Origin: Paenibacillus sp. CC-CFT747
Lineage (GTDB): Bacteria > Bacillota > Bacilli > Paenibacillales > NBRC-103111
Assembly: GCA_030323305.1 (NCBI GenBank)
Contig: CP106741.1
Location: forward strand, 67,001-131,000
Length of the DNA stretch: 64,000 nucleotides
Reading direction: 5' to 3'
This document shows, piece after piece, positions 46,205-62,221 of this stretch. Each line of letters opens with the position of its first letter. Position 1 is the first letter of the stretch. The translations under genes and the position numbers were made by a program. The notes below the pieces were generated by a model. It was not told the origin of the DNA. It saw nothing but the letters and a program-made list of their open reading frames with translations, and did not search any database.

Positions 46205-47564
46205 TCAAAACTGGCCAAGGAAGCGGGCATATTGGACGACGCGCCTTACCGAGGGACGGATTTTGGGTTCGTCCGAGGGGGCAAGCGGAGTGTTGTCTTC
46301 CTTGGAAGGCTTGGAATTGATCTCCAGGAGCAGAACCCGTCCGCGGGTATCCGCCGCCAAGTCAATGCCGAGCTCGGCGAAATGCGCCTCAATCTGCGTT
46401 TCGATGCCCTTGGCAATCTCCAGAGCTCCTTTGCTGAGCTCCGCTCTTACCTTCTTCTGAAGCATTCCGTTCAGGTTCGATTGAGCCAGAGCTTCCGGTA
46501 CCGGGCTAAGCCGTCCGCCGCGGGCAAGATTGGACACGAAATTTTGGCTGCCCGCTATTCGGGCCACAATGGAAGTGATGCTCCACTGGCCGTCCCCGTT
46601 TCGCTGGACGAGCGCCCGAAAGTCCACGGGAGAGCCTTTTACGGTGATGAGGTCAAGCCCCTCCTGCAAGAGATATTTGTTCGACTTCAGCTTGCCGGAG
46701 AGACCGGAGATCAGCTTGGCAAAGCTTGGATAAGCGGCTTCGCGGGGAGGACCGGACGGACTGGCGAAGTGGCAGGTGAACGTTCCCCCGCATGCTTGCG
46801 GATCCGGATAATCCCCTTGCCGAGTGAGCTCATGATGGGCTTCAGGAAAAGCACCGGATGGCGGTTGAACATCGCTTTCATCATGCCGGGATTTTTGTAC
46901 AGGTAGGATTCCGGCAAATAAGGAGAGAGCCCCGTTCCTTGCCCAGTGCTTCAAAAACCTCTGCCTTGTTCAGGTATCTCTCGTTGAAGATATGGACCCC
47001 TTGGCTCTTGGCCTCCCTCATAAAGCTCTGGATGGCTTCGCTGCCCTCAATGATCCGGGAGGTCAGCCGGTTGTAAACGACGTCGGGAAGCGGAAACCTC
47101 CTCTGCTTCCACCGCCCCGAGAAGGTCCAGCCGCGAAGGGATGCCGTATCGGCGGCGCCGGACGGGGTAAAGAAGAACACCTGGGCCCCATACTGCTCGC
47201 CCGCCTGGATCAGCTCCTGGCAAAAGGACGTGATGTTGCCGAAGGGCCGCTCCGGATTCTTGGACGGAACGCCCCTCAGGAGAACACCGATGAGCGGCCC
47301 CAAGGCAAGGGTGCGATCCTTGTAACGGATGCAGAGCTGGGATCCGGCTTCCAAGCCCGCCCGGTCCAGCAGCCCTTCCGACAAACGCATATCCGTCAGG
47401 CGAGGGGCGCTCATTACCCGGACGTACTGCTCGTATGCCCCTGCTTTCAGCCGGATGGGCAGCCCCTCCGGCAGCTTCAGCTTCTTGATCAGCGTGCGGG
47501 GAAGGTAAACGAAGGTTTCGTCCCGGTCTCTGCTGACCGCAATCCTTACTTTCATTCTGGTCAT
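46205..47564 (-). CDS. YheD-type spore-coat ATP-grasp protein A (two frame breaks)
   Basis: About 453 aa. The long N-terminal part (about 220 residues) contains LALGPLIGVLLRG and RRFPLPDVVYNRLTSR, shared with protein E at 56506. The ATP-grasp part shows FLKPIMSSLGKGI (nucleotide loop), YLLQEGLDLITVKGSPVDFR, LVQRNGDGQWSIT and VLLLEINSKPSKEDN (metal-binding Glu/Asn). Breaks near 46925 and 46745 fit two missing bases. The start overlaps the preceding gene's stop (ATGA). Family: endospore coat-associated YheC/D with an ATP-grasp fold; substrate unknown. Last gene of the minus arm. Confidence 0.87.
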
Positions 47565-48715
47565 GATTCTACCTCGACATCTTCATCCGGTTCGCCCGCC
47601 GCCTTCGGCTCCAGAGCTTCCTCATCCAAGGCGGCCGAAGTTTTGGCCAGGGCTTGAGCCAGGTGAACGGCGTACTCCAGCGGACGGCGGACGGCTTTGC
47701 GGTAGAGGGTCTTATCCCCCATCTCCCGGAAGATTTCCCGGCCCGGCTTAGGATTCACCTCAATGAGCCACACTTTGCCGTCGACATCGATGCCGATATC
47801 GAGCCCGAACTCCATCATGGAGCCGAAATGGCGTTCGATGGTCCTCACCACTTCCTGGGCCAGCTCCTCGCATTCCTGGCGGATGCTCTCGGTCCGGGTC
47901 TTCCCAAAGCGTTTATGAAGGAGCACATGAAAGGGCAGGGCCTTACCGCCTCCATGCAGGTTGGAGGTGGAGCTGCGGGGGCGCCGACCCTCATCCCAAG
48001 GCCGGTGACCTCCCAGACCCCCTTCTCGTTCTTCTGAATCAGAAGACGGGTGTCGACCACACGGCCCGGTACCAATTCCAGATCCAACCCCTGCTGGACC
48101 ATGAAATTGCCGTTGTGGATCCTTTCTTTCACGGTCCACTGGTCAAGCCAGTTCCGCAGCGAGGATGAGGAGGGAAGGACCGCTTTGCGCCTGACCAGAT
48201 TGCGGCTGCGGCCGAGCACCTCATAGCCGTTCGAAAGAACCTTAAGCTTGACGATGCTGCTGCCCGCCGTGCCGTTCCCCGGCTTGATGTAGAGAAGGGA
48301 ATGCCGGTTCAGCATACGGCGCAGGTTGTAATGATTGTATTCCAGCGTCTCGGGCATCCAGCGTTTGAGCCGGTCCTCCTTTAAAAAGAGCTGGGTGGCC
48401 GTCCACTTGTTGGTAAATTTATTGTTGGCATAGACGAAAAGACTCGAATTGCGAATACCGGTATACAGGGAGCCCCCTCCGGTAACGGTCAATAACCACA
48501 TCGGGCCAGCCAAACTCCCGTTCCTGCCATTCTCCTTCGGGAGAAAGGGTAAGGCCGTTAATCTTCTTCTTTCTGTCTTCGATATCCGTCAGGGTAAAGA
48601 GATAGGTGACGGCCCCAAGCTTCTGGCCTTCCCGGACCAGTCCCCGGAAATAGGCCGGTTCGCTTAAGGTCCTGCCGTTTCTCCAGACCATGATTCCGAT
48701 AACCGGTTTGCTCAT
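47561..48715 (-). CDS. YheC-type spore-coat ATP-grasp protein B (frame breaks)
   Basis: About 384 aa. The N-terminal domain PVIGIMVWRNGRTLSEPAYF, then WPDVVIDRYRRGLP is the YheC type. The ATP-grasp core reads NKFTNKWTATQLFLKEDRLK, LLYIKPGNGTAGSSIVKL, MVQQGLDLELVPGRVVDTRL, NLHGGGKALPF and GLDIGIDVDGKVWLIEVNPK. Frame changes near 48465 and 47985; the first would need two missing bases or one extra, so the local sequence there is uncertain. It sits 56 bp after protein C and overlaps protein A by 4 bp. Substrate unknown. Confidence 0.85.
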
Positions 48716-48771
48716 AGACGTTCCTCCGTTGACAGCCCGGGTGATCGGTTATCGATTGGCCGGGCTGCTAA

Positions 48772-49692
48772 TCATACAGTGTATTCGCCGGTCGCGCCGG
48801 GAGTGAGGAGAGCCCGGCTGCCGGTTTGTCTCTCACCCGACAAGAGCAGAGCCCCGCGGCGAGCGCGGAGCCCTGCTCTTGCGCACCGCCCGAAGGAGAA
48901 CCGCAGGAAGCTAGCTTCCCCGGCGGCTTCCGAGAAGCGTGACGCTTTCCGATGGGCCTTCACGTAGCGGATAATGCGGCGAAAGACGGACTTGTCCTTG
49001 AGCTTTTTGAAGATATAGGGGTCGGGGCGGGTATTCACTTCAATGATCCATGGCTTGAATTTGGAATCCAGGCCGACATCGACGCCCACAGCCGTAACAA
49101 AAGGATAGCCTTTCACCAAGTATTCCGCGATTTCGCGGCCCAGCCGGTTCAAATGAACCAGGTATTCGTCGATCTGCTTGCCGGTCAGGTACGGCTTCAG
49201 AAGCGTGTGCATGGCAAGCGGGGTGCCGCCGCTGTGGTAATTCGTTACGATTTTGTTAGGATGAGCTACCCTTCCGATGATGCCGGTATTTTCCCACTCT
49301 CCCTTAAGGTTCTTCTGAACCATGATCCGGACATCGAACGGCCTGCCCCGGTATTTAAGCAGACGAATCCCCTTTTGAACGAGATGCCTCCTCTTGGAGG
49401 TGATGCGGTAAAGGGAATGGTACATTTCATCATAGGTTGGGAAAGCGTAAACCTTCTCGCCCAGCTGGTACTCATACCCTTCATCGGAAGTCCGCTTTAC
49501 CCGCATGACACCGTGGCCGCCGGTCCCGTGATTCGGCTTGACGTACACCGTTTTGTACCTCTGCAGAAATTCGTAGAGATCCTCCTTCGTTTCCGGTGCC
49601 GTTTCGGGAATATGCTTTTTCAGCTCGCTGTTTCCATTAAGAAATCGGGTTTTCCCCAGCTTGTTGTTGGGCAGGACGTTTTGGTAAGTCAT
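48772..49692 (-). CDS. minimal YheC/D ATP-grasp protein C, lacking the N-terminal domain
   Basis: A 306-aa member with almost no N-terminal domain: it opens MTYQNVLPNNKLGKTRFLNG, directly before the ATP-grasp fold. Core motifs: VYVKPNHGTGGHGVMRVK, HLVQKGIRLLKYRGRPFDVR, VQKNLKGEWENTGIIGRVAH and GVDVGLDSKFKPWIIEVNTR. The start at ATG 49692 follows GGAGGGAATC. The last 50 residues are Arg/Ala/Gly-rich and lie over a large hairpin (48839-48882), so the true stop may be earlier and lost by an indel. First gene of the minus arm; a CATACATAG element lies 27 bp upstream. Confidence 0.85.
   Translation of the reverse strand: MTYQNVLPNNKLGKTRFLNGNSELKKHIPETAPETKEDLYEFLQRYKTVYVKPNHGTGGHGVMRVKRTSDEGYEYQLGEKVYAFPTYDEMYHSLYRITSKRRHLVQKGIRLLKYRGRPFDVRIMVQKNLKGEWENTGIIGRVAHPNKIVTNYHSGGTPLAMHTLLKPYLTGKQIDEYLVHLNRLGREIAEYLVKGYPFVTAVGVDVGLDSKFKPWIIEVNTRPDPYIFKKLKDKSVFRRIIRYVKAHRKASRFSEAAGEASFLRFSFGRCARAGLRARRGALLLSGERQTGSRALLTPGATGEYTV
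48839..48882. other. long GC-rich inverted repeat at the end of ATP-grasp gene C
   Basis: CAAGAGCAG(A)GC(C)CCGCG and its complement form a 43-bp imperfect palindrome within the annotated 3' end of the gene. On the minus strand it is followed by TTGTCGGG, too poor in T for a classic terminator. It might mark the real end of the gene. Confidence 0.5.
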
Positions 49693-49718
49693 GATTCCCT
49701 CCATTGTGGGTTTTACTA

Positions 49719-49727
49719 CTATGTATG
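49719..49727 (-). promoter_or_regulatory. sigma-E/sigma-K type -10 upstream of ATP-grasp C-B-A
   Basis: CATACATAG on the minus strand, 27 bp before gene C, fits the sporulation -10 consensus CATAcant/CATAnnnTA loosely. No clear -35. Confidence 0.35.
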
Positions 49728-49781
49728 AAGCAATCGCGGCGTTTGACACCTTCCTCCGCTCATAATGCCTCACGCGGCCAT

Positions 49782-49813
49782 AAAAAAACCGGCTGTCCGA
49801 GGACAACCGGTCT
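49782..49813 (-). terminator. intrinsic terminator after YjcZ-like gene
   Basis: On the minus strand ACCGGTTGTCC TCGG ACAGCCGGT is followed by seven T. Confidence 0.75.
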
Positions 49814-49821
49814 TCCCGTAC

Positions 49822-49914
49822 CATTAGATGATAATGGCGCGGCTGACAATGACCAGCAGAATGAAAAGCACCAGAATGACACCTACCGAGGTGAAACCAG
49901 CGTATCCGTAACCC
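49822..49914 (-). CDS. YjcZ-family small sporulation protein (30 aa)
   Basis: The ATG at 49914, after GGGAGGAG, opens MGYGYAGFTSVGVILVLFIL and ends LVIVSRAIII at TAA 49822. One Tyr/Gly-rich N-terminus and one helix is the YjcZ/SscA pattern of tiny spore-assembly proteins. Upstream, CATAGGATA (49972-49980) matches the sigma-K -10 consensus, and a terminator follows the stop. Confidence 0.8.
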
Positions 49915-49971
49915 ATGGTCTGCTCCTCCCTTCCTCTCCAGCTTCGGAAGTGGATTCCCCTATCCACATCT

Positions 49972-49980
49972 TATCCTATG
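49972..49980 (-). promoter_or_regulatory. sigma-K type -10 of YjcZ-like gene
   Basis: CATAGGATA on the minus strand, matching CATAnnnTA, 57 bp before the ATG. The same nine bases occur before the gene at 50676. Confidence 0.45.
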
Positions 49981-50035
49981 GCCTTAAGGACCGGTATGAT
50001 TGGACACCTATCCGTTCTCCCTAAAAATGGGAAGC

Positions 50036-50526
50036 TTAAGCGGGAAAAAGCGGATGGCCCCCTCCGAACCAAGCCTGCTTCCCTTGGCTCAAGGGTTTGG
50101 CGAGGATGTGGCATTTGACCCCTTGAACATAGGAAACCCGCCGGTAGCCCTTCCGGTAATAGAACCATTCGGCCCCTGTGTTGCTTTCGTCTACAAAAAC
50201 GCGAACCTCCCGGCAGCCCTTTTTCCGTCCGTGTTCCTCCGCCTTGGCGAGTAAAGCGCTGCCTCTGCCGGAGCCCTGCCTGCCCGGGGAAACCGCCAGC
50301 AGGTCAATCCACAGGCGGCCGTCCCGGACCAGGAAGACGATAAACCCGTCCGGCGGCCGGCCGTGGGAAGCGGATACCCACGTCACGCCCCGGCCAAGCC
50401 GCTTCTTCATCTCCTGGCGGTCGACCGTTATGGACGGGTTGGTCGCGCGTGCAAAGGGAGCAGCAGCTCCCGGGACAGGCGGATAATCGTTTCGTCGTCG
50501 GAGGCGGCCATTCTTTTGCGAAGCAT
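50036..50526 (-). CDS. GNAT-family N-acetyltransferase (one frame break)
   Basis: About 163 aa. The C-terminal half has LAVSPGRQGSGRGSALLAKA (acetyl-CoA loop) and FYYRKGYRRVSYVQGVKCHI. The start at ATG 50526 (MLRKRMAASDDETIIRLSRE) follows GGGAGGA at 7 bp; adding one base near 50455 joins it to the core. Isolated within the spore region; no sporulation link can be read from sequence. Confidence 0.78.
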
Positions 50527-50637
50527 ACTTCATTCCTCCCTTCCTTATTATCCTATAAGGAGGCACGGGTTTTGCCTGTGCGATGAGCACATTTTGCCTG
50601 ACCTAAACCGATAACCATACAAGCTTCCCGGGCCCTT

Positions 50638-50646
50638 CATAGGATA
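50638..50646 (+). promoter_or_regulatory. sigma-K type promoter of Gly/Tyr-rich gene
   Basis: CATAGGATA (50638-50646) with AC 17 bp upstream (50619-50620) fits the sigma-K pattern mAC-N16/17-CATAnnnTA. The ATG of the next gene is 30 bp downstream. Confidence 0.5.
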
Positions 50647-50675
50647 GGGTAAGACTGGAAACGGAGGTGCATACC

Positions 50676-50993
50676 ATGAAGCAGCAACCGGTGACGAAAG
50701 CGGAAGTCCGAAAGCTTGTCGGCAAGCAGATCTATGCCTTGAAGAAAGACGGCAGCGTAGTGTCGGGCAAACTTGTCCGCATCAAAGGCAGTGAACTGAT
50801 TCTGTCCAACGGCAAAAGCAGGGGTAAGGACAAAAAGGTGTCGGTTAAAGCCATCATTCCCCTTGTCTTGTTCGATCTTCTTGCGATAGGAACGGCCCCC
50901 TACGCCTACGGCGCCTATGGAGGATTCCCATACGGCGGCGGAGCTTTTGGCGGAGGCTACGGCGGATATTATGGAGGAGGCTTCATCTGGTAA
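50676..50993 (+). CDS. Gly/Tyr-rich small protein, likely spore coat
   Basis: A 105-aa protein. The first half is a small beta domain of the LSm-like kind (VRKLVGKQIYALKKDGSVVS, GKLVRIKGSELILSNGKSRG), the second half a hydrophobic segment (IIPLVLFDLLAIGTAPY) and a Gly/Tyr tail (AYGGFPYGGGAFGGGYGGYY). ATG 50676 is 8 bp after GGAGG. The tail composition is typical of cross-linked spore-coat proteins, and a sigma-K-like promoter precedes it. Exact role unknown. Confidence 0.75.
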   Translation: MKQQPVTKAEVRKLVGKQIYALKKDGSVVSGKLVRIKGSELILSNGKSRGKDKKVSVKAIIPLVLFDLLAIGTAPYAYGAYGGFPYGGGAFGGGYGGYYGGGFIW

Positions 50994-51019
50994 TTTCGCC
51001 ACTGAGCTGCTTATCAAAG

Positions 51020-51050
51020 AAAGGCCCGGCATCTTCTGCCGGGCCTTTCT
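51020..51050. terminator. bidirectional intrinsic terminator
   Basis: AAAGGCCCGGCA TCTTC TGCCGGGCCTTT between the plus-strand Gly/Tyr-rich gene and the convergent small-protein operon. Confidence 0.85.
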
Positions 51051-51072
51051 TACGCTGTTACGTTTCGGTCTC

Positions 51073-51399
51073 CTAGCCATTGGGACGCCCCTCCTTTTCG
51101 GACGTTTCGCCCCCATAGTCCTTGAACGAGGCGGTGATCAGCTCCCGGATCCAATCGGGCACCTCCCCTTCGTCTTCGGCCGCCTGACTCTTTTCCCCTT
51201 CCGTCTCCCGGACCGTGGACCGCGCTCCGCGGATGGTATTGCCGTCCCCTCCCACCGAACCAAACCCCTGGTTGTGCATCTTGCGGCTCGCAAAGCCCGA
51301 GGGCAGGTTGTTGCCGAAGTTCACACAGGAAGCTCCTTCCACGCTACCAATCCGCAGCTGCCCGATAACGAACGTCGGCGACAGCAAGGAAGCCGCCAT
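51073..51399 (-). CDS. GerPA/GerPF-like small spore protein, last gene of operon
   Basis: A 108-aa protein starting MAASLLSPTFVIGQLRIGSV at ATG 51399 after GGGGAAGG. The pattern VEGASCVNFGNN followed by KMHNQGFGSVGGDGNTI recalls the GerPA/GerPF spore-germination-protein pattern (xVxFGDxxxxSPKxxxKxxxGSGxxNTG) with a different middle. The tail is acidic and low-complexity. Last gene of a six- to seven-gene minus-strand operon. Homology is remote, so this is a tentative family call. Confidence 0.5.
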   Translation of the reverse strand: MAASLLSPTFVIGQLRIGSVEGASCVNFGNNLPSGFASRKMHNQGFGSVGGDGNTIRGARSTVRETEGEKSQAAEDEGEVPDWIRELITASFKDYGGETSEKEGRPNG

Positions 51400-51430
51400 T
51401 GTCCTTCCCCCTTCGCTTGACCTCATAGCT

Positions 51431-51865
51431 TCATGCGGAATCCCGTCTGCGTCCGGTCCAGTCCCCTTTCCTTCGTATCCGGCTTGCCCGCAGCATTCCC
51501 TGACCCGCCCGGCGCGTTCTTTCTCTTCGCCGGCGGCGAAAGGGAGGCTCCGCCGGTTCCCGGCGAACCGGCGGGGTATTCTTTTTCTCCGGGGCAGGCT
51601 CCAGGGGCCCTACCTTCGGGGAAAAGTTGTTTCCGAGATTAAGGGCGCCGCTCAGCTCCTGGATGTCGAGGCTGTCCAGCTTAAAGGTGAGATTCTCGAG
51701 CACGGGATGATGGACATTGACATTTTCAATCGTTACCCGGTATTCCGCCGTACGCCCGGAAACAGATTCCAGCCCCTTCTCCAGCCTTTCCAGCCGGGCG
51801 GCGATATCCTTCAGGAGCTTATCGGGCGGCGGCTTGTTCCTTCTGAACAGATTGAGCATGCTCAT
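51431..51865 (-). CDS. GerPC-like small coiled-coil protein
   Basis: 144 aa. The N-terminal coiled coil (LLKDIAARLERLEKGLESVS) is followed by a beta segment (LENLTFKLDSLDIQELSGAL, NLGNNFSP) that recalls GerPC, in which a coiled coil precedes a YKFDQLxVExLxGTLNIG motif. The last 50 residues are Arg-rich and may be out of frame. In the operon between the Hsp20-like gene and the GerPA-like gene. Tentative. Confidence 0.55.
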   Translation of the reverse strand: MSMLNLFRRNKPPPDKLLKDIAARLERLEKGLESVSGRTAEYRVTIENVNVHHPVLENLTFKLDSLDIQELSGALNLGNNFSPKVGPLEPAPEKKNTPPVRREPAEPPFRRRRRERTRRAGQGMLRASRIRRKGDWTGRRRDSA

Positions 51866-51877
51866 TACCCCATCGCT

Positions 51878-52321
51878 TTACGGCTGTTGTCCGAAATCGA
51901 CCTCCACCGGCACGTCTCCCGGATCGGGGGCTATGGCAAGCCGGATCACGAGCAGGCCATTCTCGTAACGAGCCTTGATTTCCTGAGGCAGGACGGCAAC
52001 CGGCAGCTTGATTTTACGGCTGAACCGGCCCAGGCTGCGCTCGGCGAGGAGGAGGTCCTCTTCGGGCACCGGGTAAGGATATTCCGTTTCACCGTGCAGA
52101 TGGAGGAAGTTTCCTCCGAGCCCCACCTTCAGATGCTCGGGCGATTTCAGCCCGGCGAGCTCCGCCGCCACCACCAGTTCCCCTTCATGCAGATAAAGAT
52201 CCAGGCGGGGCTCCTTGCGGGGAAGAAGATGGCTTAGGTCCTCCCAGAATTCCTCTCCGAGTATTTGGCCGGCCTGTCCTCTTAATTTTTTCCATAGAGC
52301 GGGAGACAAATAATCCTCCAT
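51878..52321 (-). CDS. Hsp20/alpha-crystallin-like protein
   Basis: 147 aa. The alpha-crystallin domain spans about 55-140: PRLDLYLHEGELVVAAELAG, LKVGLGGNFLHLHGETEYPY, SLGRFSRKIKLPVAVLPQEI and ARYENGLLVIRLAI. Starts 3 bp after the zinc-ribbon gene stop. In spore-formers, Hsp20-like proteins such as CotP/CotM are coat components; the operon context suggests the same. Confidence 0.83.
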   Translation of the reverse strand: MEDYLSPALWKKLRGQAGQILGEEFWEDLSHLLPRKEPRLDLYLHEGELVVAAELAGLKSPEHLKVGLGGNFLHLHGETEYPYPVPEEDLLLAERSLGRFSRKIKLPVAVLPQEIKARYENGLLVIRLAIAPDPGDVPVEVDFGQQP

Positions 52322-52324
52322 CGG

Positions 52325-52575
52325 TCAGGGCCTCCGCGTACTGGTCACTTGAACATTGGAGTAGCCTTGCACAAAGCCTTCCTTATGAAAAACCGTCGGA
52401 GCCCCGCACCCCGAGCAGAAGGCGGCGTCTTCCCGGTTAACCCTCTCGCACTTTTTGGTAAAGATGTCGCCTTTATGCGTGCAGTTGTTGATCAGGGGGC
52501 GGCGCACCGGACGCAGAATTTATCGGTCGGCTCGCCTTGGTGCTTGCACCGGATACAGGTACGGGGATCAGCCAT
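52325..52575 (-). CDS. double zinc-ribbon protein (one frame break)
   Basis: About 83 aa, MADPRTCIRCKHQGEPTDKF, with Cys pairs CIRCKHQ and CVRCAAP forming a first ribbon, then, after adding one C in CCCC near 52500, CTHKGDIFTKKC and CSGCGAP. The start at ATG 52575 follows GAAGGAG. It overlaps the upstream gene's stop region by 8 bp. Such paired ribbons are found in small regulators and adaptor proteins. Role in the locus unknown. Confidence 0.72.
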
Positions 52576-52780
52576 CCTTCTTCTCCTTCCCGGACGCCGG
52601 CGAAGGCTTCACCGTATGAAGGCCTCCGGCCGTTTCATTATGGTTCCCGGTCACGGCGCCAAAGCCCTCGGTTGAAGAAGAGGAGCTTTTTCTCCCAAGA
52701 ATAAGATTGGTCCCGGCATGAAGACCGGACGAGCCCGACAGCTTCTCCACGGACCAATCGTTCAGTTGAATGCGTACCAT
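52568..52780 (-). CDS. small hypothetical spore-locus protein (70 aa)
   Basis: MVRIQLNDWSVEKLSGSSGL at ATG 52780, then HAGTNLILGRKSSSSSTEGF, GAVTGNHNETAG. The order short beta start, SGL(H)AGxN, then a Gly/Asn-rich GxGxxxGxxN stretch resembles a shortened version of the two neighbouring upstream proteins. No known family recognised. Confidence 0.55.
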   Translation of the reverse strand: MVRIQLNDWSVEKLSGSSGLHAGTNLILGRKSSSSSTEGFGAVTGNHNETAGGLHTVKPSPASGKEKKDG

Positions 52781-52853
52781 AAGGATCACCTGCCGTTTCC
52801 CGTTTCTAATGTATATGAAGGGATTGCTTCAATATGCCAAGCCGCCAGCAGGC

Positions 52854-53102
52854 TCAGACCTGCTGGTTGGTAAACCCGAACTTGATGTCCTGGTCGTTAA
52901 TAGGCGTATCGATCACGACATTGTTGTTCAGAATGACCAGATTGCTCGGCAGCACGTTGTATTGGCCGAATATCGAAACATTGCCGACCAGCCTTTTGTT
53001 ATGGCTGTCCCAGCCGAACTGCGTGTTCTCCCCGATGAATACTCCCGAATCGGTCTGCATGGCATTGACGACCACACTATTGAGATTAACGGTTACCGCC
53101 AT
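52854..53102 (-). CDS. small spore-locus protein, GIF-GxN-Q-GW family, copy 2
   Basis: 82 aa: MAVTVNLNSVVVNAMQTDSG, VFIGENTQFGWDSHNKRLVG, NVSIFGQYNVLPSNLVILNN, VVIDTPINDQDIKFGFTNQQ. It aligns end to end with the gene at 53179: (S)G(I/V)FIGxNTQxGWxxHxK, GxxNxxxxNL, (D/N)xxIDTPIxDxDI. The family resembles GerPA/PF-like spore proteins but its own role is unknown. AGGTGAAGG precedes the ATG. Confidence 0.65.
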   Translation of the reverse strand: MAVTVNLNSVVVNAMQTDSGVFIGENTQFGWDSHNKRLVGNVSIFGQYNVLPSNLVILNNNVVIDTPINDQDIKFGFTNQQV

Positions 53103-53178
53103 CGTCCTTCACCTCCAGAGGCCCGCCTCCGTTTCCGGCTGCCGCCTTCTCCTGTGCTTCAGCCTATTCCCCATTGGC

Positions 53179-53457
53179 TCAGGAGGTGATTTCCACCCCT
53201 TCGCTTCTTATCACCCGGCTGATCATAATATCCCGGTCGTCAATCGGCGTATCGATAAGGTCGTTGTCGTAGACCACGTTAAGGTTGTGGGAGCAGCGGT
53301 TGAACATTCCGTTAATCGTTCCGAAGCCGGCTAGGCTTTTGGAATGGGCGCTCCATCCCCATTGGGTGTTAGGGCCGATGAAGATCCCGGAGGAGCGGTC
53401 GATCGAATTGACATTGATGTTGTTGAGGTCAATATGCACGCCCAGGTGGCGCAGCAT
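53179..53457 (-). CDS. small spore-locus protein, GIF-GxN-Q-GW family, copy 1
   Basis: 92 aa: MLRHLGVHIDLNNINVNSID, RSSGIFIGPNTQWGWSAHSK, SLAGFGTINGMFNRCSHNLN, VVYDNDLIDTPIDDRDIMIS. Paralogous to the next gene (82 aa). First gene of the small-protein operon. CATACTATA (minus strand of 53498-53506) upstream matches the sigma-E/K -10 consensus, supporting expression in sporulation. Confidence 0.65.
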   Translation of the reverse strand: MLRHLGVHIDLNNINVNSIDRSSGIFIGPNTQWGWSAHSKSLAGFGTINGMFNRCSHNLNVVYDNDLIDTPIDDRDIMISRVIRSEGVEITS

Positions 53458-53497
53458 GATTCATCCCCCGTTTCTAAATGCGCCTGCTTATAAATAG

Positions 53498-53506
53498 TAT
53501 AGTATG
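53498..53506 (-). promoter_or_regulatory. sigma-E/sigma-K type -10 of small-protein operon
   Basis: CATACTATA on the minus strand, 41 bp before the first gene of the operon. It matches CATAnnnTA; an ATA 16 bp further upstream could be a -35 element. Confidence 0.45.
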
Positions 53507-53643
53507 AGAGCGTAGTCGGGGTTATGCCATAGGGGAGCAGCCGGGCACGCCGGGGCAGACGCCCGCATAAGCTTTTAACAGGAACGAACCCGGCGCCGGA
53601 GCCGGTTCACCCTGTTTTACGTAAGAAAGGGGAGGCTTCTATC

Positions 53644-54252
53644 ATGAGCAGCAGCGGAGGAAACGAGCCTTGGAAAACACTTCACAATCTGTTCGGGGTT
53701 AAGCTGCCTTTTGCCGATGGAAAAGGTCCTTTCGGGGATACGACCCATTGGGTGGAGCCGCTGATCCAGGATATCCTGTCGCGTACGATTCCAAAGCCGG
53801 GAGCGGATGGCAAAACAACCAGCCTTCACGGGCATGCTTCCCCGGGCGGGATGGATTTCTCCTGGCTCGAAGGGGTGATCCGCGATGCCTTCAAGCAGGC
53901 CATGCCCGGGCAGCAGACCGAGACGGCCCAACCGAAAGAGGAACGAACCTACCGTACCTCATCGGCCCGGTCCGTAAGACCGGTCTCTCCTTATATCCGC
54001 GAAACCGACAAATTCGTCACAGCCCGTTTCCGGATTTCGGAGAAGACCGTGACGGACAGCTTGCGGATCTTCGTCGGAACGCACGAGCTCCGGCTGGAAG
54101 GGCTCCCGGGAGGCAAGCAAAAGACCGTCTCCTTGCCCGCACCGGTTAAAATCATGGGCAGCCAGGCCCGCTACGGCAACGGGGTGCTGGAGGTCAAGAT
54201 GCCGAAGAGACCGGATGGCCGCGAGCAGGAAATTTTTGTCCGCTACCGGTAA
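53644..54252 (+). CDS. Hsp20/alpha-crystallin-like protein, CotP-type
   Basis: 202 aa. An N-terminal variable region of about 115 residues contains KTLHNLFGVKLPF and WVEPLIQDILSRTI; the C-terminal crystallin domain (about 116-200) reads VTARFRISEKTVTDSLRIFV, GTHELRLEGLPGGKQKTVSL, NGVLEVKMPKR. AGAAAGGGGAGG precedes the ATG. It is the second Hsp20-like gene in the locus, transcribed opposite to the small-protein operon. Confidence 0.82.
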   Translation: MSSSGGNEPWKTLHNLFGVKLPFADGKGPFGDTTHWVEPLIQDILSRTIPKPGADGKTTSLHGHASPGGMDFSWLEGVIRDAFKQAMPGQQTETAQPKEERTYRTSSARSVRPVSPYIRETDKFVTARFRISEKTVTDSLRIFVGTHELRLEGLPGGKQKTVSLPAPVKIMGSQARYGNGVLEVKMPKRPDGREQEIFVRYR

Positions 54253-54363
54253 CCGCCGCCATCCGGGGCCAGCCGACTGAGCGCATGAGCTCGGTTGGTT
54301 CTTGTTCCTCGGGACAAGCCTCCTTCAGCCGCCGCCCGGCATGCTTTACGTTCTCTCCCCAAA

Positions 54364-54391
54364 GAAAAAACGGCAGGCGCCCTGCCGTTTT
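54364..54391. terminator. bidirectional intrinsic terminator
   Basis: AAAACGGCAGG CG CCCTGCCGTTTT between convergent genes. Confidence 0.8.
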
Positions 54392-54392
54392 C

Positions 54393-54671
54393 CTACTTGC
54401 GGAACGGCAGGAGCCTGCCGTCTCCTCTAAGCCTCTTCTCCAGCTGCAGCCTCTTCATACGTCGGATTCGGTTCAGCTCCTCCGCCGTTTCCTCATCCAC
54501 CCCCAGAATCGCATGCAGGTGGGCCGCCGCCATGAGCAGCGCCATGGAAAGCCAGACGACCCCAAAGATGGTGGGAAGGGTCCAGCCCTGCCCGATTTCA
54601 AGCTGCGGCACCGCGTAAATGATCATGCCGAGCGTCAGGCTCAGCAGCCCAATCGATTGAAACGCCTTCAT
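54393..54671 (-). CDS. small two-helix membrane protein, unknown
   Basis: 92 aa starting MKAFQSIGLLSLTLGMIIYA at ATG 54671 after GGAGGAG. Two helices (4-24 and 38-60) precede a charged tail (EETAEELNRIRRMKRLQLEK) that may form a helix. Unrelated to named families as far as I can see. Located between the Hsp20-like and YlbF-like genes. Confidence 0.65.
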   Translation of the reverse strand: MKAFQSIGLLSLTLGMIIYAVPQLEIGQGWTLPTIFGVVWLSMALLMAAAHLHAILGVDEETAEELNRIRRMKRLQLEKRLRGDGRLLPFRK

Positions 54672-54731
54672 CTTGCTCCTCCTCCCAAAGCTTGTACCGT
54701 TCATTGTATGCTCCGGAAGAAGCGAGTATGC

Positions 54732-55067
54732 TTAGCGGAAAACCGCCTCGAAAGGCTCCGTAATAATCTTCTGGACATCCTCCATCACAACGGACAGACG
54801 CCGTTCGGCTTCAAACAGCCTTCCAATCGAAGGATTCAGGTTCAAGACCTGGAAGAGCTTCTCCATTCTTTCCATGTCTTCCTGACCCGGCATGTCGCCG
54901 GCCATCATCCTTTGCTGCAGCTCCATGTTCTTCTCCCGGAACTCGGAGAGCATCCGTTTCGCTTCCGGTTCGGCATCGATTTCCGAGCGGAGACTCAGCA
55001 TGTCCTTGTATTCGGGGCTTTCCTTAACCGCCCTGGCGAGCTCATGCGCCTTGTCGTGAATGTTCAT
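54732..55067 (-). CDS. YlbF/YmcA family regulator
   Basis: 111 aa, wholly helical. NIHDKAHELARAVKESPEYK, FREKNMELQQRMMAGDMPGQ, MEKLFQVLNLNPSIGRLFEA, ERRLSVVMEDVQKIITEPFE follow the YlbF/YmcA pattern. In Bacillus subtilis YlbF, YmcA and YaaT assist Spo0A phosphorylation and RNA processing, relevant to sporulation and biofilm. AGGAGAGGG precedes the ATG. Confidence 0.85.
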   Translation of the reverse strand: MNIHDKAHELARAVKESPEYKDMLSLRSEIDAEPEAKRMLSEFREKNMELQQRMMAGDMPGQEDMERMEKLFQVLNLNPSIGRLFEAERRLSVVMEDVQKIITEPFEAVFR

Positions 55068-55353
55068 GTTACCCTCTCCTTTGGGCCCTCTACCGGGCCA
55101 TCGATTTGGTCATTCGGTCCGTGTTCCGGCAGCCCTTCCCACCCCCGGAAATGGGCGCTTCCCAATCACCAAGGGAAATATGTCCTCATATGATGAAGCA
55201 GTTGGTTAAAGCGGGCGGGCGTTCGCCGGGGAAAGAACCTTCCAGGAGGAACAGACCCAGCGTACACCATTCCCCCATAGAAGTAAATTCCCCTCCCTGT
55301 CCTATTTTCATTTCCAAGTACCGCCCCTAAAGGCGAAGTCATGAAGGTGCGCC

Positions 55354-56493
55354 ATGGCCAAACAACCAAATGCAGGCGGGCTCGGGATTCTGGCCTGCCG
55401 TACAGCAGGAGATCCGCCGTTCGGCGAACGGGAAACCTACCGCCGCATGTCCAAGGCCGGAGCCCGTCTCGGGATGGCGGTTACGGTTTTCTCTCCGGAA
55501 GGAATCGACGCGGACACCGGCCGGGTTCACGGCTACCGTTACAACCCGGACTCCGCCGGATGGGAATCGGGGAGCTATCCCTTTCCGTGCGTGCTTTACG
55601 ACCGGATGTTCTACTCCGATCCCGGTCTCTACCGGGCAAGCCGCGAGCAGCTCAAAAGGCTGATCCGGGAAAACGGGGTCCGTCTTCTCGGCCGCCGCCT
55701 CGAAGGCAAATGGAGCCTTTACCGTTTGCTGCGGGAGGACCCTTCCCTTGCTCCTCACCTCCCCCGTACGGAGAGATATCAGGGAGCTACCCGTCTCATG
55801 CGTGTGCTTACCTCCTGGGGCAGGGTCATTCTCAAACCGGATGGAGGCACCCAGGGTAAGGGAATTCTCCTTATCGCCAAAAGCCCCGAAGGAGGCTTCC
55901 GGGTTTCCGGCCGCGATGCGGCGAACCATCCGGTCGACCGGACCTTCTCCCGTTCTTCCGGGCTCTTCGACTGGATCGAAGAAATGATCGGAGAACGCCG
56001 CTATTTGCTTCAGGAATACTTGACTCTTCGTACCCGTGGCGGTCTGGCGTACGATATCCGCTCCTTGATGCAGAAGAACGGCAAGGGAGAGTGGAGCTTG
56101 ACGGGGATGGCAGCGAGGCATGGGCAGGCAGGCAGCCTCACGGCCAATCTGCATGGAGGAGGCTCCGCCTCCGAAGCGCTCCCCTTTCTTAAAGCGCAGT
56201 TCGGAATGGATGCGGCCCGTGCCCTTCTCTCCGTGCTGCACCGCCTCTCCGGGAGCATTCCGCCTGTGCTTGAAGATCATTACGGTCCATTAGCCGAGCT
56301 CGGCCTCGACTTCGGAATCGACACCAGCGGTAAGGTTTGGATTCTGGAAGCCAATTCCAAGCCGGGACGCGCCGTGTTCCATAGGACCGGCGACCGCAGG
56401 GCCCGGCTCGGTTCTATTCATAATCCCGTCGCCTACGCGCGGTTTCTTCTCGACCGGCAGAAGCTCTGCCTGAAGCAGCCGCAATACGTTTAG
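55354..56493 (+). CDS. YheC-type spore-coat ATP-grasp protein D
   Basis: An intact 379-aa member. The N-terminal domain (1-120) has GILACRTAGDPPFGERETYR and FPCVLYDRMF. The ATP-grasp core has VILKPDGGTQGKGILLI (nucleotide loop, Lys 161), YLLQEYLTLRTRGGLAYDIR, MQKNGKGEWSLTGMAARHGQ, ANLHGGGSA and GLDFGIDTSGKVWILEANSK (Glu 333, Asn 335 for metal). Start ATG 55354. First gene of the plus arm D-E-F-G; E follows by 12 bp. Family role: endospore coat; substrate unknown. Confidence 0.92.
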   Translation: MAKQPNAGGLGILACRTAGDPPFGERETYRRMSKAGARLGMAVTVFSPEGIDADTGRVHGYRYNPDSAGWESGSYPFPCVLYDRMFYSDPGLYRASREQLKRLIRENGVRLLGRRLEGKWSLYRLLREDPSLAPHLPRTERYQGATRLMRVLTSWGRVILKPDGGTQGKGILLIAKSPEGGFRVSGRDAANHPVDRTFSRSSGLFDWIEEMIGERRYLLQEYLTLRTRGGLAYDIRSLMQKNGKGEWSLTGMAARHGQAGSLTANLHGGGSASEALPFLKAQFGMDAARALLSVLHRLSGSIPPVLEDHYGPLAELGLDFGIDTSGKVWILEANSKPGRAVFHRTGDRRARLGSIHNPVAYARFLLDRQKLCLKQPQYV

Positions 56494-56505
56494 GAGGATA
56501 TTTTG

Positions 56506-57876
56506 ATGAGTTTAGCATCGTGCACTATCCTTATCACCCAACAGACCGACAGGTCGATTGCTTTGACCCGGTCTTTAAGCAAAGCGTTGCAGCTCGGCAC
56601 GGCCAAAACCGTCAACCTGAGGCTCGGCTCGAAGAATGTCACGGTAGCGCTGAAGCCGTTAAACCGCAAAGGGAATCTGTTGGTCATCCCCGCTTCCGTT
56701 GCGACCTCCATTCGTCTCCCCAGCCCCGGCAAGTGCCAGGTGAAGGCAACCGGAAACCGCGAGCTGCAGATCGGCCCCCTGATCGGCTTCCTTACCGGAA
56801 TCAACATTCCGGACGGCAAGCCGGGCCAGCAGAAGCAGTTCATCCGTGAATTTCTGGAAGCGGGACATGATCGTTCGTATACGTTTGCCTTCTCCCCGTC
56901 AGGAGTGAACTGGAGGGACGAGGTCGTGACGGGGTATTTCCCACTGCCCGGCGGCAAGTGGGTCCGCCGGACCGTGCCCCTCCCCGATGTCGTGTATAAC
57001 CGGCTGGGCCACCGGGGAGCGGAGAAAACGATGTCGATCCGGGAGTTCAAGGAAAGGTTCGTCAGCCGGCGGATTCCGATCTTCAACTGGAGCTTCTTTG
57101 ACAAGATGGACGTTTACCGCCTGCTGGAGGACGATCTTCAGGCGTTCTCCCACGTTCCGGAATCGAGCAGCGGACCCTCTCCGGAAGAAATCCGCCGCAT
57201 GATGGAGAAGCATCGATTCGTTTACCTGAAACCGACGGCGGGCAGTCTCGGCTTCGGCATTTACCGGCTTACCTACAATCCGGAGAAAGGGTACTTTGCC
57301 CGGTACCGGAAGGACGGCAGCAACGTGCTTATCCGGTTCCCCCGCTTCGAAGGGCTGATGAACATGCTGAGGCGGCAGAACATCCGGCTTCCGAATTACG
57401 TCGTTCAGCAAGGAATCCGGCTGATTGAGCTGGATAACTGCCCGATCGACTTCCGCTTCCATATGACGAAGAACGGGGAAGACGAGTGGGTGGTGGCCGC
57501 CGTTGGGGCCAAAAAGGCGGGCCGGGGAAGCGTGACGACCCATGTGCGGACCGGCGGCATGCTGATGACGCCGGAGCAGGTGCTCTCCGCGGTGTATGGA
57601 AGCCGGGGAGCGGATATTCTCGTCAAGGCGAAGGAGGTTGCCGTCAAGCTGGCGGAGGCGATTGAACGAAATTATCCCCATCGGCTCGGGGAGCTGGGCT
57701 TCGATCTAGGCATAGACCAGGACGAAACGATCTGGATGTTCGAGGCCAACGCCAAGCCCGGCCGTTCGATATTTAAGCACCCGGCCCTGAAGGTCCAAGG
57801 AAAGGAATCGCTTAACAACCTGGTGGAGCACTGCCTGTTTTTGAGCCGGTTCCGGGCGAGGAGGAGTCCTGATTGA
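56506..57876 (+). CDS. YheD-type spore-coat ATP-grasp protein E
   Basis: 456 aa, intact. The N-terminal domain of about 200 residues includes LQIGPLIGFLTGINIPDGKP, TFAFSPSGVNW and RRTVPLPDVVYNRLGHRGAE, matching protein A. The ATP-grasp core: FVYLKPTAGSLGFGIYRL, YVVQQGIRLIELDNCPIDFR, MTKNGEDEWVVAAVGAKKAG and FDLGIDQDETIWMFEANAKP. The start at ATG 56506 is 8 bp after AGGAGG (56492-56497). E overlaps F by 4 bp (TTGA). Confidence 0.92.
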   Translation: MSLASCTILITQQTDRSIALTRSLSKALQLGTAKTVNLRLGSKNVTVALKPLNRKGNLLVIPASVATSIRLPSPGKCQVKATGNRELQIGPLIGFLTGINIPDGKPGQQKQFIREFLEAGHDRSYTFAFSPSGVNWRDEVVTGYFPLPGGKWVRRTVPLPDVVYNRLGHRGAEKTMSIREFKERFVSRRIPIFNWSFFDKMDVYRLLEDDLQAFSHVPESSSGPSPEEIRRMMEKHRFVYLKPTAGSLGFGIYRLTYNPEKGYFARYRKDGSNVLIRFPRFEGLMNMLRRQNIRLPNYVVQQGIRLIELDNCPIDFRFHMTKNGEDEWVVAAVGAKKAGRGSVTTHVRTGGMLMTPEQVLSAVYGSRGADILVKAKEVAVKLAEAIERNYPHRLGELGFDLGIDQDETIWMFEANAKPGRSIFKHPALKVQGKESLNNLVEHCLFLSRFRARRSPD

Positions 57877-59025
57877 GTGCCTTCGTTCTCGAAACCATGC
57901 CGAAAGCGTCCATGGCCATTCTCACCATGCCGGACTCGGTCCGGCCGTTTCGCGGCAATCACATCAACTTCATCGATCTGATCCGCAAGGGCAGGGAGCT
58001 TGGGGCGTTCGTCTTTGTGGTGACTCCCCGCGACTTGAAGCTCGGGCAAAAAGGGTCCACGGCTATGTCTACAACATCGAGCAGAAAACGTGGACCCGCC
58101 AGCTGCTTCCCCTTCCCCAGGTCATCTATAACCGGATCCCGACACGCAAGGATGAACAGCAGCCGGAGGTTCAGCAGACGATCAAGGCTTGCTTGAAGAA
58201 CCCCTCGATCTCCTTGTTCAATCCTTTCTTCTTCAACAAATGGTCTCTATTCGAATGGCTCCATAAATCCAAGGCCACCCGCCGGTACATTCCGGCCACC
58301 AAAAAGCTGGCCAGCCTGGAGGAACTGGAAGACTTTCTGCAGAAACACAACTCCGCTTATCTGAAGCCGGTGAGAGGGAAAGCCGGAAAGGGGATCATGA
58401 AGGTGCAGCTCGGGACCCCGCGCGACAAGTACTGGTGCCGGCTCACGATCCAGGATCATAAGAACAGCCAGGTTTCGACCTACGACAGCCCTTCGAAGCT
58501 GTGGGCCGCCCTCAAGCAGGGAATAGGCAGCGAGGAGTATATCATCCAGCAGGGCATCAAGCTCGCCCGTGCCGGCAAAAGGCCCTTTGACTTGAGGGTG
58601 CTCGTGCAGAAAAACCATAACGGCGACTGGAGCTTCTCCGGAGTCGGAGCCCGGGTAGCGGGTAAACAGAGCATCACCACTCACGTGCCCCGGGGAGGAC
58701 GCATCGATACTCCGGAGAAGGTGCTCACGTCCGCATTCGGGGGGATCGCAGTATGGATCTTCTCAACAAGGTGAAGGAAACGGCCCTGCTGCTCGCCTCC
58801 CGGATTGAGAAGGCGTCGGGAGAGAAGCTGGGCGAGATGTCCATGGATCTTGGGATCGACACCGATGGCCGCCTGTGGTTCTTCGAAGCGAATTCCCGCC
58901 CCATGAAGTTCGATGAGCCGGATATCCGCCGGCGGTCGCTCGAAAGGATTATCCAGTACAGCCTTCACTTATCCAACGGGCGGGTGACGTCCACGGCCAC
59001 GATATCGGGAAGAAAGAGGAGGTGA
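57873..59025 (+). CDS. YheC-type spore-coat ATP-grasp protein F (two frame breaks)
   Basis: About 384 aa. Starts with TTG 57873, coupled to the E stop, GGAGG 8 bp upstream. N-terminal part: MAILTMPDSVRPFRGNHINF, IDLIRKGRELGAFVFVVTPR. After adding one base near 58050 it continues VHGYVYNIEQKTWTRQLLPL, PQVIYNR. Core: AYLKPVRGKAGKGIMKV, YIIQQGIKLARAGKRPFDLR, VQKNHNGDWSFSGVGARVAG. After a second break near 58740: MSMDLGIDTDGRLWFFEANS. Length modulo 3 agrees with two missing bases. Confidence 0.87.
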
Positions 59026-59029
59026 GCCC

Positions 59030-60118
59030 ATGACGACCGCCCTTGGGATCATGGCGCTCTACGTCCGGGACCGAGCCTACTCCCGGGAAGAGCTCCCTTA
59101 TTTCCGCAAGCTGATTACGGAGGGAAGACGGCTCGGTCTGGATGTGTTCCTTTTTACCCCGGAGGATGTCCGGCATGAAGAGCGCCGTATCCATGCCTCC
59201 CGTCTCGACCCGGCCGGGGAATGGTACCGGGAATGGGTGCCTATGCCCCGTCTTGTCTTCGACCGCTGCCGCTACCAGAGCCATCCCCGCTTCCGGCTGA
59301 TGAGGCAGTTTCGGGCCCGGTATCCCGAGATCCTTTACCTTAACCGGCCGCTTGCGCACAAGTGGGGCAATCACGTCCGGCTATCCAAGGATCCCCACGT
59401 CCGCCGCCATCTGCCGGAGACGCGCCATTATCAAAGCAGGGCGGATCTGGATTATTTCCTGAAGAAATACCCGGTCGTCTATCTCAAGCCGAGAGACGGA
59501 ACGGGAGGCCGGGGAATCGCCAGCATCCGCAGGAGAGGAAACGGCCTCTATCTTCTCCAAGGCCGGGACCCCCGGCTGAAAATCCTTAGGCCGGCCGTGC
59601 TAAGAGCCTCCTCGATCCCCGGCCGGCTCAAGGACTGGGGGCTTCAGAAGAAATACCTCGTTCAGCAGGGAATCGACCTGGAGCTGGAGGACGGAAGGGT
59701 TCACGATTACCGGCTTCTTATCCAGAAGAACGGGAACGGGGAATGGGAAGTAACCGGTGGAGCGGGCCGCATTGGGGCGAAGAGAAGCGTGACCTCCAAC
59801 ATTCACGGCGGGGGCCGGGCGGTTCCCTGCGACCAATTGCTGCGCTCGCGGTTCTCGGCCGAGAAAGCGGCTTCCATCCGGGCCTCCATGGACCGGCTGT
59901 GCCACTCGACGGTCAGGCAGCTTGAGAAGCATTTCGGCTCCATGTGCGAAATGGCGCTCGACATTGCGGTCGATCCCGAAGGAAAGACCTGGCTTCTCGA
60001 GGTCAACCCCAAGCCGGCCCGGGAAGTATTCCGTCTGATCGGGGAGGAGGAAACGTACCGGCGGTCGATCACCCGCCCGCTGGAGTACGCCCTCTGGCTT
60101 TCCCGGAACCGGGCTTAG
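59030..60118 (+). CDS. YheC-type spore-coat ATP-grasp protein G
   Basis: 362 aa, intact. GIMALYVRDRAYSREELPYF opens the N-terminal domain, ending MPRLVFDRCRY; then LYLNRPLAHKWGNHVRLSKD. ATP-grasp core: VYLKPRDGTGGRGIASI, YLVQQGIDLELEDGRVHDYR, IQKNGNGEWEVTGGAGRIGA, NIHGGGRAVP and ALDIAVDPEGKTWLLEVNPK. Four bp after F with GGAGGTGAG at its start. Last gene of the plus arm; a strong terminator follows. Substrate unknown. Confidence 0.92.
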   Translation: MTTALGIMALYVRDRAYSREELPYFRKLITEGRRLGLDVFLFTPEDVRHEERRIHASRLDPAGEWYREWVPMPRLVFDRCRYQSHPRFRLMRQFRARYPEILYLNRPLAHKWGNHVRLSKDPHVRRHLPETRHYQSRADLDYFLKKYPVVYLKPRDGTGGRGIASIRRRGNGLYLLQGRDPRLKILRPAVLRASSIPGRLKDWGLQKKYLVQQGIDLELEDGRVHDYRLLIQKNGNGEWEVTGGAGRIGAKRSVTSNIHGGGRAVPCDQLLRSRFSAEKAASIRASMDRLCHSTVRQLEKHFGSMCEMALDIAVDPEGKTWLLEVNPKPAREVFRLIGEEETYRRSITRPLEYALWLSRNRA

Positions 60119-60223: not shown

Positions 60224-60919
60224 CTAAAGTTCCAGCAGCTCCGGGAAGCTTCGTATTTTAACATCGGCGCCGTCCAGCTCCGACGCTTTGCCGAACCCGG
60301 CATAATCGCAGCCGACGACGAACAACCTGTTCTTCTTGCCCGCCTCCACATCGGAGGAACGGTCTCCCACCATCCAGGCCGATTGGACACGGTGGTTGTC
60401 CAGCAGCTGTTTGACGAGATCCACCTTCGATTCGGTCCGGTATTCTCCTGCGGTGTACAGATTCTCGAACAGGTCGGCCACTCCTTTATGCCGACTCACC
60501 AGTTTAACATAATTCTCCAATCCGTTACTGGCGATGAACAGCCGTATTCCGCTCTGCTGCAGCTTCCTAAGCGTGTCCTCCACGCCAGGATACAGAGCGC
60601 CTTCGCCCCGCTTCAGACAGGACAGCTGATGCTGAAGGAGAAGCTCGTCCGCGCGGCGGTGTACGGAAGCCGGCGATTCGGGAAGGACCTTCCGCCAGAT
60701 TTCACGAATAACCATTCCCAGGCAGGAGGTTATCCTCTCTTCGGGAGGGGTCTCGCCCTCATAAAGCCCTTCCCGGCGAAGCTGCTCAAAGGTGGCATGG
60801 TAGGCAGGCAGCAGAATGGATTCGGATTGAAACAGTGTTCCGTCGAGATCGAAAATCATCGCTTCGGGCTGATGAAGCTTGTGTCTTATCATGCCTGTCC
60901 CCCTATCCGATTGGTTCAT
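60224..60919 (-). CDS. HAD-superfamily phosphatase
   Basis: 231 aa (or 222 from the in-frame ATG 60892). Motif I is AMIFDLDGTLFQSESILL, motif II GIRLFIASNGLENYVKLVSR, motif III Lys in ESKVDLVKQLL, motif IV AWMVGDRSSDVEAGKKN. A helical cap lies between motifs I and II, as in phosphoglycolate phosphatase-like enzymes. Both possible starts have modest RBSs. Substrate unknown. Confidence 0.85.
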   Translation of the reverse strand: MNQSDRGTGMIRHKLHQPEAMIFDLDGTLFQSESILLPAYHATFEQLRREGLYEGETPPEERITSCLGMVIREIWRKVLPESPASVHRRADELLLQHQLSCLKRGEGALYPGVEDTLRKLQQSGIRLFIASNGLENYVKLVSRHKGVADLFENLYTAGEYRTESKVDLVKQLLDNHRVQSAWMVGDRSSDVEAGKKNRLFVVGCDYAGFGKASELDGADVKIRSFPELLEL

Positions 60920-61091: not shown

Positions 61092-61660
61092 TTAGAAAAC
61101 CTTCTTGGCATCCCGCTCCGATTTGAGAATTTCAACGGCCTCCCGGAAGCGCTGGGAGTGAATGATTTCCCGTTCGCGGAGAAATTTCAGCCCATCCTGA
61201 AGATCCACGTCGTCCGTCAGGTCTATGAGCCATTGGTATGTCGCCCTCGCCTTCTCTTCGGCGGCGATATCTTCATACAGATCGGCGATCGGATCGCCCT
61301 TGGCCTGAATGTAGGCGGCGGTCCAGGGCACGCCGGAGGAGTTTGAGTAGAAGAGTGCCCGGTCATGCTGCGAATACTGATCGCCAAGTCCCGCTGCCTT
61401 CATCTGCTCCACGGTGGCGTCCTTCGTCAGCTTGTAGACCATCGTCGCAATCATCTCGAGATGGGCGAACTCCTCCGTTCCGATGTCCGTAAGCAGGCCG
61501 ATGACTTTATCCGGAATGGTGTACCGCTGGTTCAAATAGCGCAAAGCGGCCGCCAGCTCTCCGTCGGCTCCCCGTACTGCTCCAGGAGCAGCTTAGCCAT
61601 ATGGGGATCGCATTTGCTCACACGGACGGGATACTGAAGTTTTTTCTCATAAATCCACAT
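61092..61660 (-). CDS. cotJC: spore coat protein CotJC, manganese-catalase-like (one frame break)
   Basis: About 189 aa. Start MWIYEKKLQYPVRVSKCDPH at ATG 61660. After adding one G to GGGG near 61575 it joins GADGELAAALRYLNQRYTIP. Di-manganese ligands of the catalase fold are visible: LTDIGTEEFAHLEMIATMVY (Glu/His) and EREIIHSQRFREAVEI. Length modulo 3 agrees. CotJC is an inner-coat component; the family has catalase-like metal sites. Last gene of cotJABC. Confidence 0.92.
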
Positions 61661-61687: not shown

Positions 61688-61951
61688 TTAAACCTGCCAC
61701 GGCCATGGCGCCTGGGCCCAGTCCCAGGGCTCCCGGGTGGGGCTGTGCCCGAACTGCAGAAGGGGACCGTACGCCGCTTCGTATTGGGCGGCCACCTGGT
61801 GCCGCTTCAGGCTGAACTGATTGAATTGGGCGAGCGCCTGAGGATCGCGGGGGTGAGTGTCGAGGTAGAGGGTCAGCTCCACCAGCACGAAATCGAGCGC
61901 CTGCAGCTCCTCGAGCAGCCGGTAATACTGTTCATCCAGTTTGATAGCCAT
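61688..61951 (-). CDS. cotJB: spore coat protein CotJB
   Basis: 87 aa: [51 protein letters not shown] and the Trp/Pro-rich end [14 protein letters not shown], the family hallmark. In the cotJABC operon; needed for coat assembly of CotJC in Bacillus subtilis. GGAGGGAAA precedes the ATG. Confidence 0.93.
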
Positions 61952-61963: not shown

Positions 61964-62173
61964 TTAGCACTTTTGTCCGGGGTATGGGCTCATGAGACAG
62001 GGCCATAGAACGCCGTGCCGCAGTGCTAGCATCGGGGGGAACTGCGGCAAATTCATCGGCTGGAAGCCGAGATAAAGATTCGGCGGAGTGTTATAGAACT
62101 TGACGGGGATGGGCGGACAAGGGTCGAACGGCCCGCGGAACGGGACGTACGCTTTAAAATTACTTGTATACAT
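61964..62173 (-). CDS. cotJA: spore coat protein CotJA
   Basis: 69 aa: MYTSNFKAYVPFRGPFDPCP, PIPVKFYNTPPNLYLGFQPM, NLPQFPPMLALRHGVLWPCL. A Pro/Tyr-rich coat protein of the CotJA family. Start ATG 62173 after AGGAGG; first gene of cotJABC. A CATATGGTA element lies 40 bp upstream. Confidence 0.9.
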   Translation of the reverse strand: MYTSNFKAYVPFRGPFDPCPPIPVKFYNTPPNLYLGFQPMNLPQFPPMLALRHGVLWPCLMSPYPGQKC

Positions 62174-62212
62174 GGCGGTTCCTCCTGGCAAGGTCTGTAA
62201 GTCTTTTCTCCA

Positions 62213-62221
62213 TACCATATG
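62213..62221 (-). promoter_or_regulatory. sigma-E type -10 of cotJABC
   Basis: CATATGGTA on the minus strand, 40 bp before cotJA. cotJ is sigma-E-controlled in Bacillus subtilis, and this fits CATAnnnTA. An ATA 18 bp upstream could be part of the -35. Confidence 0.45.

Follow-up and report, generated by a model that had tools for sequence, protein, structure and literature searches.

On the evidence of gene order and orthology, four adjacent genes of the YheC/YheD ATP-grasp family (PF14398), together with a fifth that has been relocated, represent in one genome a conserved and probably ancient operon of five genes. They lie in a 64,000-nucleotide stretch of the genome of Paenibacillus sp. CC-CFT747, the whole of which we call the window; genes D, E, F and G occupy positions 2 to 5 of the operon and gene A position 1. 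The family itself is already known. Our literature search, which had partial coverage, found nothing describing the five-position operon, the element upstream of it, the barrel domain of its long members or the reduced state of Bacillus subtilis, all set out below. A comparative analysis of ATP-grasp amidoligases by Iyer et al. in 2009 is said to treat related families.

Seven PF14398 genes and their neighbourhood

The window carries seven PF14398 genes in two arms. On the minus strand these are C (48772..49824), a short ATP-grasp form without the upstream conserved region, B (47561..48715), also a short form, and A (46205..47564), a long form with an N-terminal barrel domain. The plus-strand arm consists of D (55354..56493), E (56503..57876), which joins a double-psi barrel to a RimK-like ATP-grasp body, F (57873..59025) and G (59030..60118). 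The earlier note had called seven such genes in these places, coupled within each arm, and both calls hold: a profile search placed all of them well over the curated cut-off for PF14398 (ATPgrasp_YheCD; 26.8 bits), with broken genes scored piece by piece, and B and A overlap by ATGA, E and F by TTGA, with short gaps between D and E and between F and G.

The assembly shows two frame breaks in each of A, B and F and a frame shift in the C-terminal tail of C. Another genome of this species, G296, which matches the window at 98.3% identity over 24 kb, has every one of the seven genes open and in the window's layout, gene A encoding 459 amino acids. Bases are missing at 27 places in the window versus five in G296, and 22 of the 27 sit in homopolymers (runs of at least four identical bases). 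Because the genes are open in G296 and the gaps of the window are mostly homopolymeric, errors of assembly are the most likely source of the breaks. With the gaps left aside, dN/dS between the two genomes is 0.06-0.30 for the seven genes (on few changes), which at the sequence level shows purifying selection within the species; the open frames, the homopolymer gaps and these ratios together rule out that the genes are pseudogenes. A 5'-nucleotidase-like gene with SLH-type repeats (43841-46008; named by eye) is likewise split by a frame shift, which further points to indel errors in the assembly, and the open frame of SpoIVA is shorter in the window's genome than in G296.

About five additional PF14398 genes lie elsewhere in this genome; copies at 1798k and 3085k of the same genome are the ones with which gene C clusters in the tree. 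Also in this genome, two PF14398 stretches lie 2.3 kb apart at G000:C1 2728830-2731926 (L092), one of them matching 55 positions only.

The earlier note had also described a spore small-protein module between the arms, and its inventory stands in part. A Hsp20 family protein (51878..52321, minus) is a clear match to PF00011 and the Gly/Tyr-rich small protein (50667..50993, plus) is a real open reading frame. The second Hsp20-like protein (53644..54252, plus) is a weak match, with Gorillibacterium timonense as the only relative to keep it next to the array. Two GerPA/PF-like proteins (53179..53457, at 26.8 bits, and 52854..53102; both minus) fall below the Pfam cut-off (GerP-like scores of 26.8 and 18.3 bits versus 27.3), a third such frame is a weak match (52568..52789, minus; matched part 52610-52783), and the 30-aa YjcZ-like frame upstream of C (49824..49916, minus) was named by eye, with no match in NCBIfam. 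A GNAT acetyltransferase gene (50036..50590, minus) completes the interval on the C side.

The conserved surroundings of the array are different ones. In many relatives it is flanked on one side by a YlbF gene and a small membrane protein and on the other by a HAD hydrolase and cotJABC. The window has the small membrane protein (54393..54704, minus; an array neighbour in 28 of 44 loci examined), which we take to be YqzF/DUF2627-like, and the YlbF/YmcA family gene (54732..55067, minus), the counterpart of the yheA that stands beside yheBCD in a B. subtilis-group genome. Downstream lie the HAD hydrolase (60224..60919, minus; a neighbour in 22 of the 44 loci) and genes for a CotJC-like coat protein of the manganese-catalase family (61092..61544, minus), CotJB (61688..61951, minus) and CotJA (61964..62485, minus). 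By contrast, among the relatives searched the module adjoins the array only in the window's genome and in G. timonense, where the C-B-A arm is on a different contig from module and array; in the remaining relatives module-type genes, including GerP-like relatives, are unlinked to the array. The two-arm picture is therefore local, and the proposal that arms and module form one system finds no support in other species, apart from partial support in G. timonense.

In other genomes a GNAT gene can sit inside the array, between positions 4 and 5. Outside the order it does so in nine of the 12 Bacilli loci, and it is found there in some Paenibacillaceae too, but it is absent from the array of the window; L195-L202, L205 and L207 are loci with such an embedded GNAT acetyltransferase-like gene. 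The GNAT protein of the window has no detectable homology to it, and the idea that the two are the same gene is rejected. A homologue of the Gly/Tyr-rich protein adjoins the array in a second genus (L057 of G008, 5331-5678; window 50667-50993); both proteins contain Lys, and it is possible that this small protein is a coat acceptor of the ligases proposed below. Beyond the named neighbours, no array-wide conserved small frame or substrate protein was found, in a search that very short frames could escape, and an Rfam search of the region matched no known RNA.

Array order, orthology and the B. subtilis pair

PF14398 genes are present in all 39 relatives searched. Of the 36 Paenibacillales array loci examined, 28 have all five genes pointing the same way, with proteins near 460, 380, 458, 385 and 375 aa at positions 1 to 5; the order 1-2-3-4-5 also occurs in 63 of 80 loci from named Paenibacillaceae. 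In the tree each position forms one clade: four changes, the fewest that five labels allow, are enough. Genes D to G group with positions 2 to 5 in that order, and A with position 1, so that each of these genes belongs to an orthologous line; B forms a separate lineage, sister to position 5. On this phylogeny B and C are extra paralogues beside the five-position set. Paralogues are about 27% identical to one another, compared with 41-59% inside one position, and the copies within the window share 22-42%; the low identity of the window's copies and the position clades rule out recent duplication, including the recent near-identical copies that the earlier note had named as counting against its candidate system.

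The array extends beyond Paenibacillales. Positions 1-2-3-4-5 occur in that order in four genomes of other Bacilli orders (G186, G175, G071 and G060) and positions 1-2-3-4 in five more. On the simplest reading of the tree, which is unrooted, the five positions would predate the split of the Bacilli orders concerned; whole arrays might also have spread by horizontal transfer.

These comparisons change the place of B. subtilis. Only two PF14398 genes occur in G105, a genome of the B. subtilis group identified as such from its yheA-yheB-yheC-yheD-yheE neighbourhood, whereas the window has members of five orthologous positions and two further paralogues. The yheC of G105 falls in position 2, in the same 22-row clade as D (support 99), and its yheD in position 3, in the same 23-row clade as E (support 96), each pair grouping to the exclusion of the other paralogues. 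Arrays and the B. subtilis group also have neighbours in common, YlbF (yheA) and DUF445 (yheB). Tree and synteny thus indicate that two members of an older set of five survive in B. subtilis, so that the yheC/yheD pair looks like a reduced remnant and, on the simplest reading, the group lost positions 1, 4 and 5. The earlier note had started from B. subtilis having only two such genes and treated the seven as the expanded state; the same evidence points in the opposite direction.

A promoter-like element and the link to sporulation

A promoter-like element, CACCAAG-N10-CCTCATATGATG, followed by nAGTAgTT, directly precedes the array (55167..55195, plus). It is the only exact copy in the genome, with no second copy below three mismatches. 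Allowing at most two mismatches, it is found in 21 of 22 genomes of the order versus two of 228 others (two mismatches in each), a feature that sets the Paenibacillales array apart from yheC-yheD; at up to three mismatches it occurs in 277 of 296 genomes of the order, a reversed control being much rarer. In the coordinates compared, about 3.3 kb separate the element from position 3 downstream of it, and in two genomes in which position 1 has moved away (G002 and G023) a diverged copy stands upstream of the moved gene. The reduced pattern CACC-N16-CATANNNTR, which occurs once in the window, may be read as resembling a sigma-K-type promoter; strict sigma-E, sigma-K and SpoIIID patterns show no enrichment upstream of position 1. 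In B. subtilis, the sigma-E regulon includes yheC and yheD, both of which SpoIIID stimulates (PMC517825).

The distribution of the family links it to sporulation. In a class-wide sample, PF14398 occurs in 171 of 250 genomes, and by hand count 164 of the 171 have Spo0A (the exceptions being G067, G144, G174, G185, G208, G254 and G256). In one genus (g36), which is a single lineage, both the array and the element are absent; SpoIVA is found in none of its 16 genomes as against 20 of 20 comparison genomes, and eight of the 16 have no PF14398 gene at all, the other half keeping other members of the family. In B. subtilis, YheD forms rings first and then a shell encasing the spore, with strong self-interaction (PMC7911427), and the shell depends on SpoIVA (PMC7911427, PMC7769602). 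Members of the SpoIVA-less genus (G318, G083, G467 and others; for example L211 7581-) encode proteins of about 700 aa with two PF14398 domains per chain, which may represent reuse of the ligase outside sporulation.

Catalytic residues, fold and proposed function

The ATP-grasp catalytic residues K, Q, D, R, E and N are retained in all seven proteins (alignment columns 274, 281, 332, 346, 348, 432, 445 and 447), and A to G conserve the Lys, Gly-rich loop, Gln, Asp/Arg and Glu-x-Asn that mark the superfamily; the loss of ATP-binding residues, which the earlier note had considered as a sign of inactive structural proteins, is not seen. At column 377, in a conserved loop of active-site type, positions 1, 2 and 5 have Asn and positions 3 and 4 have His, a split that may separate substrate classes. 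A sequence search found no solved structure of E. The nearest structural neighbour of its model (pLDDT 94.4, pTM 0.91) is RimK, with Z 22.0 and 277 residues aligned, followed by LysX/ArgX at about 21, glutathione synthetase at 20.7, and then TTL/TTLL at about 18 and graspetide ligases. The RimK/LysX-type ligase fold is thus recovered in the model (Z 21-22 over 264-277 aligned residues), a fold that alone shows no function: because the kinase PPIP5K2 and synapsin are also among the neighbours, it does not imply an amide product.

The array nevertheless differs from each of these known systems. RimK, LysX/ArgX and glutathione synthetase have the same body fold (Z 20-22) and the catalytic residues are present in A to G, yet identity is 15-18% and the array proteins score far under the NCBIfam equivalog cut-offs (about 21 bits versus 350 for MptN; about 16-22 versus 314 for rimK_rel); moreover, the array is a sporulation-linked multigene set whose long forms have an extra domain. 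The graspetide (RiPP) ligases PsnB, CdnC and AMdnB belong to the same fold family as E and carry out peptide-directed ester or amide formation, but no precursor peptide gene, which in such systems is adjacent and has a repeated core, was recognised beside the arrays in a search that very short frames could escape. The extra domain, which the earlier note had anticipated as differing N-terminal regions, is shown to be a double-psi barrel, which positions 1 and 3 have in addition to the ATP-grasp body. For position 3 this comes from modelling of E, whose residues 1-95, taken by themselves, give a model of moderate confidence (pLDDT 80.5) that matches the VCP-type barrel; for position 1 it comes from alignment over that region. 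The likeness to the N-terminal barrel of p97/VCP (TM about 0.6, identity about 10-16%) is one of fold, the barrel being fused to ATP-grasp in E and to AAA in p97/VCP.

The kept catalytic residues, the ligase-like fold and the split of the loop residue together favour five distinct ATP-dependent ligases. That these form an ancient sporulation operon of non-redundant enzymes acting on coat material is the most likely of the explanations considered, at about even odds in our estimate. Transcription of the operon would take place in the mother cell of sporulating bacteria; with ATP, each enzyme would activate a carboxylate as an acyl-phosphate and join it to an amine, whether of an amino acid, a peptide or a coat protein; the barrel would dock two of the five to coat proteins or to one another; and the five together would tag or cross-link the coat, B. 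subtilis retaining only positions 2 (YheC) and 3 (YheD). The stepwise synthesis of a coat polymer, as the earlier note proposed, is possible. We hold more tentatively to a fuller version, in which an ancestral Bacilli set of five enzymes, with a dedicated mother-cell promoter in Paenibacillales and docking by the p97-like barrel, builds a hitherto undescribed amide-linked coat polymer or modification; here the retention of just two members by B. subtilis would explain why no function has been assigned to its yheCD. None of the papers found reports an enzymatic activity, a substrate or a product for any YheC or YheD protein.

The nearest folds, RimK, LysX/ArgX and glutathione synthetase, the weak resemblance of D and YheC to the glutamate ligase MptN in NCBIfam and the GNAT gene inside many arrays would also suit a small-molecule pathway. 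Its product would be a soluble peptide or amino-acid conjugate, kept inside the spore or around it, instead of modified coat protein. The conserved neighbours of the array include no transporter or carrier protein, however, and YheD itself is located in the coat (PMC7911427), which leaves this explanation doubtful. The rings, shell and self-interaction of YheD (PMC7911427), together with five co-expressed paralogues that could be layer subunits, would fit structural coat proteins in which an old ATP-grasp fold serves as a nucleotide-dependent self-assembling layer with no ligation product; we consider this unlikely, given that five lineages otherwise about 27% identical hardly vary at the catalytic K, Q, D, R, E and N and that column 377 differs by lineage as it would in enzymes. 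Kinases or other phosphoryl-transfer enzymes acting on a coat polymer, suggested by PPIP5K2 (Z about 18), are very improbable, since the Z scores of RimK, LysX and glutathione synthetase (20.7-22.0) exceed it and the loop of (S/T)N-x3-GG type in positions 1, 2 and 5 looks similar to that of amino-acid ligases.

YheD is a known coat protein, and YheC and YheD have been studied in a species that seemingly holds only a remnant of their set. The five-position operon, with its orthology, element, barrel and SpoIVA-linked loss, makes the function of the family directly testable. It also hints at enzymatic modification of the coat, a step of which B. subtilis as a model may reveal no more than a part.
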